64,000 nucleotides of DNA from Lysobacter soli (GTDB taxonomy: Bacteria > Pseudomonadota > Gammaproteobacteria > Xanthomonadales > Xanthomonadaceae), in the NCBI RefSeq assembly GCF_003382285.1, contig NZ_QTJR01000001.1, positions 620,001-684,000 of the forward strand, given 5' to 3'. A program made the position numbers and the translations under genes. Below, piece by piece: positions 2,376 through 38,378 of this stretch (positions are counted from its first letter, which is position 1; every line of letters begins with the position of its first letter). Below the pieces are notes generated by a model. That model searched no databases, had not been told where the DNA came from, and worked only from the letters and a program-made list of their open reading frames with translations.

Positions 2376-3149
2376 ATGCCCGTCCTGCCGCGCCTTCTCG
2401 CCGTTACCGCCGTCCTGTTGTCTGCGCCTTTCGCCGCGGGGGCTGGCCGCCATGCGTCATCCGAAACGACCATCGCATCGGCACCGACGGTGCAACCCGG
2501 CGTTCAGCCTGGAGGCGTGTGGCTCTCGCGGCTGGCGCCGGCGGCAAATCCGAAAGTGCTCGAGCTCGCCGTCTCGGCAATGCAGTGCGCACAGGCGAGC
2601 GGCATCGGCGCGGACGCGCGCCGCCTCGCCGTCATCGATTACAGCCGTCCGTCGCTGAAGCCGCGGCTATGGGTGTTCGACCTTGCGGCCGGCCGCCTGC
2701 TCTACGAGGAAGTCGTTGCGCACGGCCAGGGTTCCGGCGAGAACATGGCGACGCGTTTCTCCAATCTCGACGGCAGCCACCAGTCGAGCCTCGGCCTGTT
2801 TGTCACGGCCGATACCTATACCGGCAAGAACGGCTATTCGCTGCGCATGCGCGGGCTGGAGCCAGGTGTGAACGATGCGGCGATGGCGCGCGCGATCGTC
2901 ATGCATGGCGCGCCGTATGTCGATCCGACTCAAGGCCAGCGCATGGGACGACTGGGCCGCAGTTGGGGATGTCCCGCGGTGCGCAGCGCGGTTGCGAAGC
3001 CGATGATCGATCTGTTGAAGGACGGCCAGTTCGTCTTTTCGTACTACCCCGACCAAGCCTGGCTCACGCGCTCGGCGTTGCTCAAGTGCCCCGCGGCGCG
3101 CAAGACGCTTGCACGCAGCCTCGGGACGGCGGTGTCCACGTCGGGATGA
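2376..3149 (+). CDS. Murein L,D-transpeptidase catalytic domain protein (YkuD_2 type)
   Basis: The 257-residue exported protein has a signal peptide (residues 1-22, ending AGA). The rest matches the YkuD_2 murein L,D-transpeptidase family: a conserved VIDYSRPS strand, VMHG (His) around residue 179, and RSWGCPAV near residue 205, which carries the catalytic cysteine. Such enzymes act in the periplasm on peptidoglycan stem peptides, forming 3-3 cross-links or attaching or cleaving linked proteins. The start is the ATG directly before the signal peptide. The gene stands alone, with a convergent gene downstream. A second L,D-transpeptidase of a different subfamily lies 4 kb away. Confidence 0.9.
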   Translation: MPVLPRLLAVTAVLLSAPFAAGAGRHASSETTIASAPTVQPGVQPGGVWLSRLAPAANPKVLELAVSAMQCAQASGIGADARRLAVIDYSRPSLKPRLWVFDLAAGRLLYEEVVAHGQGSGENMATRFSNLDGSHQSSLGLFVTADTYTGKNGYSLRMRGLEPGVNDAAMARAIVMHGAPYVDPTQGQRMGRLGRSWGCPAVRSAVAKPMIDLLKDGQFVFSYYPDQAWLTRSALLKCPAARKTLARSLGTAVSTSG

Positions 3150-35705: not shown

Positions 35706-36680
35706 TCAACCCTTGGCCGGTCCGCCAACGCCGTCGAGAAACGCCGCCCGGACGGCCTCAAGCTGGTCGCGCTGGCGCTGCGGATCGAACCACAGGGCAT
35801 CGAGTTCGCCGCGGAGCCAGGTGAGCTGGCGCTTGGCCAGCTGGCGGGTCGCGTACACGCCGCGATCACGGAATTCCGATCCCGTGGTCGCGCCGTCGAG
35901 GTGCTCCCAGGCCTGCCGGTAGCCGACGGCACGCAACGCCGGCAGATCGAGCGGTGCCGGATGGTCGCGCAGTTCCCGGAGCTCGCGCAGCGTGCGCACT
36001 TCGTCGAGGAAGCCGGCTTCGAGCATCAGGTCGAAGCGCCGGCCAATGCGCTCATGGAGCACCGCCCGATCCGCCGGCGCGAGCACCAGCTTGAGCACGC
36101 GCACCGGCAACCGCGGTGGCCGATGCTCGCGACGCCAGTCGCTGATCGTCCGGCCGGAAAGGCGGAAGACTTCCAGTGCTCGCTGGATGCGCTGGGCGTC
36201 GGTGGCGTGGATGCGGGCGGCGGCTTCCGGGTCGATCGCCGCCAGATCGGCATGCATCGCGGCCCAACCGCGCCGCTGCGCTTCGGCGTCCAGTTGCGCG
36301 CGCATGTCGGCGTCGGCTTCCGGCATCGGCGAGAGCCCGTGCAGCAGTGCGTGGAAATACAGGCCGGTGCCGCCGGCGAGGATCGGCAACCGCCCACGGG
36401 CCACGATGTCCTCGACCGCTCGCCGCGCATCCACGGCGAACTCCGCCGCCGAGTACGGCTGCCACGGCTCGCGCAGGTCGATCAGGTGGTGCGGCACGCG
36501 CGCCAGTTCGTCCGGCGCCGGCTTGGCCGATCCGATATCGAGCCGCCGGTACACCAGCGCCGAATCGACGCTGACGATCTCGCCGCCGAAGCGTTCGGCC
36601 CAGTCCAGCGCGAGCGCGGTCTTGCCCGAAGCGGTCGGGCCCATGAGGGCAATCACGAGCGGGCGCGGATCGGCGGGCAT
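35706..36680 (-). CDS. miaA: tRNA dimethylallyltransferase MiaA
   Basis: The start is the ATG at 36680 (324 residues, [16 protein letters not shown]). It has the P-loop GPTASGKT, the [16 protein letters not shown] segment, [12 protein letters not shown] and the tRNA-binding helices ending in [13 protein letters not shown]. MiaA adds dimethylallyl to N6 of A37 in tRNAs reading U-starting codons, using DMAPP. mutL, its usual upstream partner in enterobacteria, is absent. Instead a long repeat-filled gap separates it from folP. Confidence 0.97.
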
Positions 36681-36749
36681 GTCGAAGGCGGCGGGTCGGG
36701 GGCGTAGCCTCGCACAGCCCGGTCGCGCGGAAAACGCCGGCCGCCCCGG

Positions 36750-36796
36750 CTTTCCACACAAGGTGTGGAGAACCACTGGGGCAAGGCTGTTGATAA
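36750..36796. repeat. Degenerate first unit of the DnaA-box-like array
   Basis: CTTTCCACA (36750-36758) faces TGTGGAGAA (36764-36772), followed by TGTTGATAA (36788-36796). The last two each differ from TGTGGATAA, the complement of the DnaA box TTATCCACA, at one position. Spacing differs from that of the four other units. Confidence 0.6.
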
Positions 36797-36863
36797 GACA
36801 TCGCAGCCCAGGCGCCGCAAGGCCTTCCGGGTGGTTGGCGAAATTTTGGCCAGCGCGCGTGCG

Positions 36864-36910
36864 CTATCCACATCGCCTGTGGACAAGCCTGCGGACAGCG
36901 ATGTGGGCAG
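36864..36910. repeat. DnaA-box-like core 1
   Basis: CTATCCACA (36864-36872) is followed after 5 bp by TGTGGACAA (36878-36886), and then at 12-bp steps by TGCGGACAG (36890-36898) and TGTGGGCAG (36902-36910). The first two are single mismatches to the DnaA box and its complement. Confidence 0.75.
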
Positions 36911-37046
36911 TGGCCGCATACGTCGCAACCACGGGCCTCACCGCAAGCCTGGCCAAAAAATCACCACATATTCTGCTTGACGGATGCGGCGGTTTCGGCA
37001 TCGCGGACATGCATGACGACGACGCGCTGCGACGCGACGAACGCGG

Positions 37047-37093
37047 CTATCCACACCGCCTGTGGACAAGCCTGCGGACAGCGATGTGGATTC
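37047..37093. repeat. DnaA-box-like core 2
   Basis: It has the same layout as core 1: CTATCCACA (37047-37055), TGTGGACAA (37061-37069), TGCGGACAG (37073-37081) and TGTGGATTC (37085-37093). It lies 183 bp from core 1. A perfect CCTTGCG/CGCAAGG stem follows at 37105-37128. Confidence 0.75.
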
Positions 37094-37218
37094 CATGCTG
37101 CACGCCTTGCGCTGCAAGCGTCGCAAGGAGTTTGGACAGAAACTGGCCACAAAAAACGTTTGACTTGCGGCGTCGATTACGCATTGCGTTCGTGCGCTTC
37201 TGGCCGTGATCAGCGCGG

Positions 37219-37265
37219 CTATCCACACAGCTTGTGGACAAGCCTGCGGACAGCGATGTGGGGAT
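37219..37265. repeat. DnaA-box-like core 3
   Basis: The same layout recurs: CTATCCACA (37219-37227), TGTGGACAA (37233-37241), TGCGGACAG (37245-37253) and TGTGGGGAT (37257-37265). It lies 172 bp from core 2. The downstream flank carries a perfect palindrome, TGGTCAG-AAA-CTGACCA, at 37305-37321. Confidence 0.75.
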
Positions 37266-37367
37266 CGTGCCGAACGCCTTGCCACACAAGCTTCGCAGCA
37301 AGTTTGGTCAGAAACTGACCACTGAAATCAGTTGACGTACAAGTCGATTTCGGCGTGTACACGTGCG

Positions 37368-37414
37368 CTATCCACACGGCCTGTGGACAAGCACGCGGAC
37401 AACGTTGTGCGCAT
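37368..37414. repeat. DnaA-box-like core 4
   Basis: CTATCCACA (37368-37376), TGTGGACAA (37382-37390), CGCGGACAA (37394-37402) and TGTGCGCAT (37406-37414), 149 bp from core 3. The two outer right-hand boxes are more diverged, and the repeat ends in folP-proximal sequence soon after. Confidence 0.72.
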
Positions 37415-37478
37415 CGCGCTGCAAGCCTTGTGCAGCAAGGCGCCGCGGGGATTGATCAAAATATCGCCAGGCGATGCG

Positions 37479-38378
37479 TCATTCCTCGTCGGGCCACTTC
37501 GGCATCGACGGCGCGCTTTTCGCCCGCGGCATCGCCTGCGAGGCGACGGCGTTCCACACCTTCAGTGCATCCACGGTGGCGGCGACGTCATGCACGCGCA
37601 GCAGCTTCGCGCCACGCTGCGCGGCGATGAGGTGCGCGGCCACGGAGCCGGACGCGCGTTCGCGCGGTGCATCGCGGCCGGTGATCTCGCCGATGGTGCG
37701 CTTGCGCGAGAGTCCGGCGAGCAGCGGAACACCCAGTTCGGCAAGGCGTTCGAGTTGCGCGAGCAAGGCGAGGTTGTGCTGCGTGTTCTTACCGAAACCG
37801 AAACCGGGATCGACCACGATCTTCTTCTTCGCGATGCCAGCCATCTCCGCGGCGAAGATCCGTTCGGCGAGGAAGCGGTGAACATCGGCGACCACATCGT
37901 CGTAATGCGGCGCGTCCTGCATCGAACGCGGCTCGCCCTGCATGTGCATGAGCACTACGGGCACGCCGAGTTCGGCGGCGGCATCGAGCGCACCTTCGCG
38001 ACGCAGCGCGTAGACATCGTTGATCATGCCCGCGCCGGCCTGCACGGCCGCGCGCATGACCTCGGGCTTGGAGGTGTCGATGCTGATCGGCAGCGAGGTC
38101 TCGCGCGCGAGGCGTTCGATCACGGGAATCGTGCGGCGCAGTTCTTCCTCGACCGACACGTCGGCCGCGCCGGGCCGCGTGGATTCGCCGCCGATGTCGA
38201 GCACGTCGGCGCCCTCCTCCGCCAGCGCCAGCCCGTGCGCGACGGCGGCATCGAGCGTGTCGTACGCGCCACCGTCGGAAAACGAATCCGGCGTGACGTT
38301 GACGATGCCCATCACGCGCGGGCGATCGAGCGCGAGCGGACGGCCGTTGCAGTCGAGGATGGGCGTGATGTCGAACAT
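37479..38378 (-). CDS. folP: Dihydropteroate synthase
   Basis: The start is the ATG at 38378 (299 residues, MFDITPILDCNGR). It has both DHPS signatures, GIVNVTPDSFSDGG and DIGGESTRPGA, with SIDTSKP, VVLMHMQGEP, VDPGFGFGK and the C-terminal RVHDV. It condenses p-aminobenzoate with the pterin diphosphate in folate synthesis and is the sulfonamide target. It lies downstream of ftsH on the same strand, but a terminator hairpin intervenes, so it probably has its own promoter. Confidence 0.97.
   Translation of the reverse strand: MFDITPILDCNGRPLALDRPRVMGIVNVTPDSFSDGGAYDTLDAAVAHGLALAEEGADVLDIGGESTRPGAADVSVEEELRRTIPVIERLARETSLPISIDTSKPEVMRAAVQAGAGMINDVYALRREGALDAAAELGVPVVLMHMQGEPRSMQDAPHYDDVVADVHRFLAERIFAAEMAGIAKKKIVVDPGFGFGKNTQHNLALLAQLERLAELGVPLLAGLSRKRTIGEITGRDAPRERASGSVAAHLIAAQRGAKLLRVHDVAATVDALKVWNAVASQAMPRAKSAPSMPKWPDEE

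Follow-up and report, generated by a model that had tools for sequence, protein, structure and literature searches.

Five DnaA-box units with a fixed downstream palindrome between miaA and folP of Lysobacter soli: a probable DARS-like array

Results

Five two-part units lie between miaA and folP

The window, i.e. the whole 64-kb stretch of Lysobacter soli DNA analysed here, contains five two-part units at 36750–37469, each about 103 bp long and composed of a DnaA-box half followed by an 18-bp palindrome. Within a unit the DnaA boxes lie at 0 (plus strand), 14 (minus), 26 (minus, weak) and 38 (minus); boxes I and II face each other with 5 bp between them, and the minus-strand boxes at +26 and +38 follow in 12-bp steps. 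The flanking reading frame at 35706–36680 we take to be miaA from its protein family, a name supported by tblastn matches in relatives, and the one at 37479–38378 is presumably folP, likewise named by family. The features are as follows.

35706–36680, minus strand: miaA, open reading frame with its start codon at 36680 (flank, outside the element)
36750–36852, plus strand: unit 1 (loose), boxes at 36750 (+), 36764 (−), 36776 (very weak) and 36788 (−, TGTTGATAA)
36835–36852: palindrome of unit 1, TTGGCGAAATTTTGGCCA
36864–36966, plus strand: unit 2, boxes at 36864 (+), 36878 (−), 36890 (−, weak) and 36902 (−)
36949–36966: palindrome of unit 2, CTGGCCAAAAAATCACCA
37047–37149, plus strand: unit 3, boxes at 37047 (+), 37061 (−), 37073 (−, weak) and 37085 (−)
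37132–37149: palindrome of unit 3, TTGGACAGAAACTGGCCA
37219–37321, plus strand: unit 4, boxes at 37219 (+), 37233 (−), 37245 (−, weak) and 37257 (−, weak)
37304–37321: palindrome of unit 4, TTGGTCAGAAACTGACCA
37368–37469, plus strand: unit 5, boxes at 37368 (+), 37382 (−), 37394 (−, weak) and 37406 (−, weak)
37452–37469: palindrome of unit 5, TTGATCAAAATATCGCCA
37479–38378, minus strand: folP, open reading frame, listed from the farther-upstream start 38477 (flank, outside the element)

An initial annotation, made from the sequence alone, had described four cores of one layout, beginning at 36864, 37047, 37219 and 37368, and a looser unit at 36750, and all five were found there. The four cores, which are the strong units, consist of CTATCCACA facing TGTGGACAA across a 5-bp gap, followed by 9-mers every 12 bp; these 9-mers are of the TGnGG type in the first three cores, as the annotation had proposed for all, and read CGCGGACAA and TGTGCGCAT in the fourth. 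The looser unit lies 70 bp before the start codon of MiaA and reads CTTTCCACA / TGTGGAGAA / TGTTGATAA, its +38 box being kept as TGTTGATAA. Box III is weak throughout the window units (5/8 matches), and of the roughly 19 weak boxes originally counted, 11 match TTWTNCACA with at most one mismatch, the rest being weak. Unit-to-unit spacing is irregular (114, 183, 172 and 149 bp), and because it varies the array is not called by Tandem Repeats Finder. The second half of each unit, the palindrome, had escaped the initial annotation. Between core and palindrome, many units also carry a weaker inverted repeat, approximately GCCTTG-N5-CAAGGC, at unit offset +55 to +75 (e.g. 37102–37122), a stretch with 0.6 bits of information.

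The array is nearly unique in the genome and is conserved box by box

Matches to TGTGGANAA with at most one mismatch numbered 17 in the 64 kb, 11 of them at 36750–37390; since the total equals that expected from shuffles (mean 16.97), the excess lies in their clustering. When the facing-pair pattern was searched with up to three mismatches in the whole 3.95-Mb genome, 13 rows were returned, comprising 10 for the five units (two readings each), two for one palindrome upstream of priA and one elsewhere, while the reversed control returned none. The sites of the host are the array and the priA site, bar that single three-mismatch match; a dispersed repeat family, for which the initial annotation would have expected hundreds of copies, is rejected.

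In a six-genome alignment, 68 of 72 box columns were invariant (ungapped columns of units 2–4, taking boxes I and II together with six bases of box III), compared with 25/69 columns in the gaps within cores and 115/336 between cores, bearing out the earlier remark that the cores are better kept than their flanks and revealing constraint at the level of the boxes themselves. For a broader view we kept 100 cores in 36 genomes, from 117 hits obtained after removal of 9 near-duplicate loci; those dropped were five judged to be chance or coding matches, eight of another family (f12) and four Lysobacter psychrotolerans units (L081) with a differing layout. Mean information in these cores was 1.58 bits for box I, 2.01 for box II, 0.71 for box III, 1.02 for box IV and 1.07 for the palindrome, versus 0.09–0.33 bits in their least conserved stretches. 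The element is thus real, under selection and of DnaA type. Open reading frames cross the array, but the corresponding regions of relatives measure 706, 708, 588, 702, 568 and 782 bp, lengths that differ by non-multiples of three, so that no conserved protein is encoded and a coding explanation is rejected.

A palindrome lies at a fixed distance from nearly all cores

A side-by-side listing of cores from many relatives displayed an AT-rich palindrome at a constant distance downstream. Its consensus is approximately TTGGCnAAWWWTTnGCCA (18 bp), and it begins 84 or 85 bp from box I in all five window units (offsets 85, 85, 85, 85 and 84 bp). A matrix was trained on 35 cores from 8 close genomes, all of which carry the palindrome (offset 85 in 30, 84 in 5), and tested on 65 cores from 28 other genomes. 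Between −150 and +230, the best match fell at +84 to +86 in 48/65 test cores and coincided with the palindrome of an adjacent core in the remaining 17/17; a score of at least 10 bits at +83 to +87 was reached by 63/65, both exceptions being the two cores of a single locus (L148), whose palindromes are weak at 4.0 and 7.3 bits. Best scores at +79 to +88 averaged 19.9, whereas five control stretches gave −18.4 to −22.3. Many of the cores that share a locus are copies of one another, and these counts are accordingly not counts of independent events; the more independent evidence is that of the single-unit loci of several genera and of the priA site. Elsewhere in the 64 kb, no place reaches 14 bits with this matrix. 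The eight f12 units, inspected by eye, have no such palindrome at +84/85, so that the two-part unit is shown here for the window's own family only.

Allowing two mismatches and counting distinct places by hand, units account for 5 of the host genome's 8 palindrome places and for 11 of the 17 found in one large-genome relative (G173; reversed controls, 3 and 5 matches, respectively); two of the host places lacking a unit read as coding DNA, the second by eye. The palindrome is more selective than would be expected of a general Fis site. Its G, A, T and C positions corresponding to the anchors of the Fis consensus are kept in 35, 35, 34 and 35 of the 35 training palindromes and the host encodes Fis, making Fis a candidate binder from sequence; the strict Fis consensus is matched by 2 of the 5 window palindromes and by 0–3 places in each of five relatives. 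As the strict consensus is present in only those two and the palindrome is rare, a dedicated protein at this site is also possible. The IHF consensus WATCAANNNNTTR was absent, at up to one mismatch, from the array in six genomes. Besides Fis, the host encodes Hda and five HU/IHF-type matches, which together render a regulatory ATP/ADP cycle of DnaA plausible.

A single unit precedes priA

The second host site (C25:86218; L014:8219–8241) lies upstream of priA and comprises a facing pair with perfect boxes I and II, a box III (6/8 matches) and the palindrome, in one copy as against the five of the array. Among the fetched loci we found 20 perfect palindromes TTATCCACA-N5-TGTGGATAA (own genome plus 19 others), and in 20/20 a TGTG lay at +26 on exactly one side, with the best palindrome-matrix match at +84 to +86 on that TGTG side. 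Of these 19 other loci, 18 encode PriA. Present family-wide among the loci examined, the priA unit may be a single-copy DARS-like site, a possible link between DnaA and replication restart.

Unit number varies widely among relatives

At least one facing pair (≤1 mismatch) was present in 237 of 297 genomes of the family, the reversed control matching in one, and all 11 other members of the genus in this sample have at least three matches. The scanned region contained one or more cores at 30 of 80 named miaA loci (29 if L073, considered doubtful, is set aside) and no core at the other 50. Two or more cores occur in Lysobacter arvi, L. sp. MMG2, L. prati, L. sp. cf310, L. changpingensis, L. enzymogenes, L. 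antibioticus, L. maris and Vulcaniibacterium, among others; a single core behind folP was seen in other Lysobacter species and in Luteimonas abyssi, and at one locus (L078) a transporter gene, putP-like by reading, separates the unit from miaA. No core was found in 7/7 Xanthomonas/Stenotrophomonas loci, where the folP–miaA gap is 3–66 bp. Overall, a locus holds 1 to 11 units, with 11 in G116. In the folP–miaA regions of relatives, 138/216 facing pairs are 14 bp apart and further boxes follow box II at +12 (82) and +24 (76), numbers that reflect inherited rather than independent copies.

Additional sites were noticed in relatives with large genomes (L047, L051, L136). In G173 a second array, in inverted orientation, is located some 57 kb from the first and adjoins UPF0093 and alkaline phosphatase genes; the third site there consists of one unit flanked by a response regulator gene and a histidine kinase gene. 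The L. psychrotolerans locus L081 carries a second tandem set of four units 119 bp apart, TTGTCCACA-N5-TGTGCACAA, with another downstream layout.

The locus is mostly mid-replichore and away from dnaA

Taking dnaA as the origin, with lengths rounded except for G173 and G138, miaA lies at 55–68% of the half-chromosome in 9 of 11 single-contig relatives.

Genus members: G105 57%, G129 66%, G223 66%, G235 68%
Large Lysobacter-type genomes: G173 57%, G138 67%, G292 20%
Others: G232 66%, G038 56%, G096 55%, G275 84%

The priA unit lies at 17% (G173), 22% (G138) and 96% (G292), the last value indicating that G292 looks rearranged. For comparison, DARS1, DARS2 and datA of E. coli are at 66, 41 and 20%. 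An origin-like role, one of the options raised initially, does not survive these data: in the host, dnaA is on contig C2 and the array on C1, the locus is 0.6–2.1 Mb from dnaA in complete relatives (0.58–2.08 Mb in the 11 single-contig ones) and GC skew is flat, with no switch in the 64-kb window. A replication origin is rejected by the distance and the flat skew. To our knowledge, no experimental origin is known for this species. The 12 kb around the host dnaA (C2:92000–104000, L046) contain three boxes within one mismatch of TTATCCACA, fewer than the array.

Boxes I to III are spaced as in E. coli DARS1 and DARS2

We compared the units with 11 E. coli stretches covering 15 of the 16 ChIP peaks published in PMC11317965, all but the dnaN peak. 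DARS1 has boxes at 1708 (+), 1722 (−) and 1734 (−) of L052 and DARS2 at 3136 (+), 3150 (−) and 3162 (−) of L053, i.e. cores of 0 (+)/14 (−)/26 (−) that match all five units exactly by position; their boxes II and III agree with double boxes listed in PMC11317965. Among the 11 stretches, only DARS1 and DARS2 had boxes facing each other at +14 that each matched at 7/8 or better. Summed three-box scores were 19 for the window cores, 22 for the host's own priA site, 22 for DARS1, 21 for DARS2 and at most 14 elsewhere in the window; since E. coli DNA near polA also reaches 19, the summed score alone does not discriminate.

The array resembles DARS1 (bioD-uvrB) and DARS2 (rppH-mutH) also in being non-coding and mid-replichore, and, like DARS2, it has a putative accessory-protein site beside the core (Fis and IHF sites in DARS2, as the relevant passages of PMC4245941 describe). 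It differs in having five cores in a row where E. coli has one, in its fourth box at +38 and fixed palindrome at +84/85, and in its neighbours, which are miaA/folP and priA instead of bioD-uvrB and mutH. Moreover, the array differs from DARS2 in having no IHF consensus and is not filed as DARS2 for that reason; DARS1, according to the sections of PMC5742627 that treat it, needs no IHF. No palindrome of this kind was found at +84/85 in DARS1, DARS2 or datA. A candidate counterpart in DARS2, TTGGCGAAAGATCAACCA at +184 (score 13.9), was set aside as weak because three places in 23.5 kb of E. coli DNA reach 13.9, where simple shuffles predict 0.4.

Other DnaA-bound regions share less of this layout. 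datA is likewise a box cluster in non-coding DNA, but its stretch has no +14 facing pair (the nearest is at 12 bp) and the part of PMC5742627 that deals with datA states that it requires an IHF site in E. coli, whereas the array has none in six genomes. The double boxes of DnaA-bound promoters (polA, purH, nrdA and others) are described in PMC11317965 as same-strand and 3 bp apart, which is the spacing of boxes II–III–IV, but at these promoters no box I with 7/8 matches faces them at 14 bp. A near-origin titration region (PMC12371093) is comparable in box density; it lies near oriC, in contrast to the array locus in 9 of the 11 mapped genomes.

Discussion

The array is probably a multi-copy DnaA-reactivating, DARS-like element that would recharge ADP-DnaA, with a Fis-like or dedicated partner protein at the palindrome. 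The initial suggestion of a datA-, DARS- or origin-like locus is thereby narrowed to its DARS-like part, for which the 0/14/26 geometry provides strong support. Because nucleotide exchange is what we infer here, the IHF sites of DARS2 are missing and the genes beside the element differ from those in E. coli, we do not claim DARS membership. Counted against the DARS-like reading are the weak box III, the score tie with polA, the missing IHF consensus, the strict Fis consensus in two of five palindromes, a location not beside uvrB or mutH, the positions in G292 (20%) and G275 (84%), and the lack of cores at the seven Xanthomonas and Stenotrophomonas loci.

According to the mechanism we propose, ADP-DnaA would be held on the facing boxes I and II of each unit, and the same-strand boxes III and IV would add DnaA by 12-bp stepping. 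The facing pair would set the AAA+ domains head to head, lowering their affinity for ADP so that ADP leaves (a head-to-head model of boxes I and II is given in PMC8682772 and PMC5742627); apo-DnaA would then depart and bind ATP. Bound to the palindrome at +84/85, Fis or a dedicated factor may bend the DNA or gate the reaction. More tentatively, the array might be a newly built DnaA-recharging module, joining a DARS-type core to the site of a dedicated gating protein at a fixed 84/85 bp, by which Xanthomonadales lineages tune their supply of ATP-DnaA through unit number (a single locus holding from 1 to 11, and the largest genomes having further loci); we regard this version as conceivable and somewhat doubtful.

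Simple titration, in which the boxes soak up DnaA with no nucleotide exchange, would account for the presence of eleven good boxes within about 640 bp and for a copy number that varies freely among relatives (1 to 11 units), as expected of a sink, and the E. coli DARS and datA loci are themselves said to titrate DnaA in PMC12371093. We nevertheless consider it unlikely, as a sink needs neither the exact 14/12 spacing nor a fixed +84/85 partner site, both of which are kept even in single-unit loci, and as the dense region described in PMC12371093 is near the origin while the array locus is mostly mid-replichore. Units immediately precede miaA in the window and lie upstream of priA in 18/19 loci tested, an arrangement that would suit a transcription switch worked by DnaA and its partner on the neighbouring genes (miaA-hfq, priA). 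Such a switch seems distinctly improbable given that several relatives have the unit behind folP, with the putP-like gene standing between it and miaA (L078), and that the large-genome units adjoin UPF0093/alkaline phosphatase or response regulator/histidine kinase genes, neighbours with no common theme.

A datA-like element, an option of the initial annotation, would here promote ATP hydrolysis by DnaA. It has in its favour that about 6.3 kb separate datA from miaA in E. coli (L054, L055), miaA being a gene that flanks the array, by chance or as old synteny of a DnaA-control region. The lack of a +14 facing pair in datA and of an IHF consensus (≤1 mismatch) in the array of six genomes renders it very unlikely. 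That the conserved parts act as RNA hairpins or an sRNA instead of protein-binding DNA is hardly credible: TCCACA-N5-TGTGGA can fold and a weak Rfam sX4 match overlaps unit 5 (19.9 bits against a gathering score of 70; E 0.033–0.1), but by eye the third base of box I can be A or G whereas its partner is always C, meaning that pairing does not keep the stem, and no such stem would include boxes III and IV. In 8 relatives Rfam gave no match with an E value of 0.01 or lower, and a known RNA (sX4) is rejected.

The DARS-like reading suggests that this bacterial branch sets the timing of chromosome replication through a multi-copy form of the DnaA-recharging switch of E. coli. In the passages of a review and of PMC4245941 that concern them, DARS sites are described for E. 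coli and its near relatives, with conservation among E. coli-proximal beta/gamma species only. If the reading is true, a two-part unit found across a family of a distant gammaproteobacterial order, and sharing that core, would mean that DnaA recharging by DNA is more ancient and more diverse than has been supposed. It would also provide a search signature (boxes at 0/14/26/38 plus a palindrome at +84/85), point to a further protein at the palindrome, and turn lineages with 1 to 11 units into a natural dose series for relating recharging capacity to initiation timing. Our literature search, which covered mostly papers outside subscription journals, found no paper joining DARS1, DARS2 and Xanthomonas, and searches on the Lysobacter DnaA box or replication origin, on DnaA box with priA and on Xanthomonas oriC boxes gave no title on such an element among the matches listed.

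Facing pairs also occur in another family of the order, where 3 of 20 stretches from outside the window's family had 1, 3 and 4 pairs with 14-bp spacing upstream of miaA, none with the palindrome at +84/85; these are possibly an independent or an older version. At L182 (3–4 units, beside a Peptidase_S46 gene), L184 and L187, GTATCCACA-N5-TGTGGATAT repeats recur every 124–130 bp upstream of miaA, and some of these pairs have a TGGTCA-N5-TGACCA-like site about 50 bp downstream.
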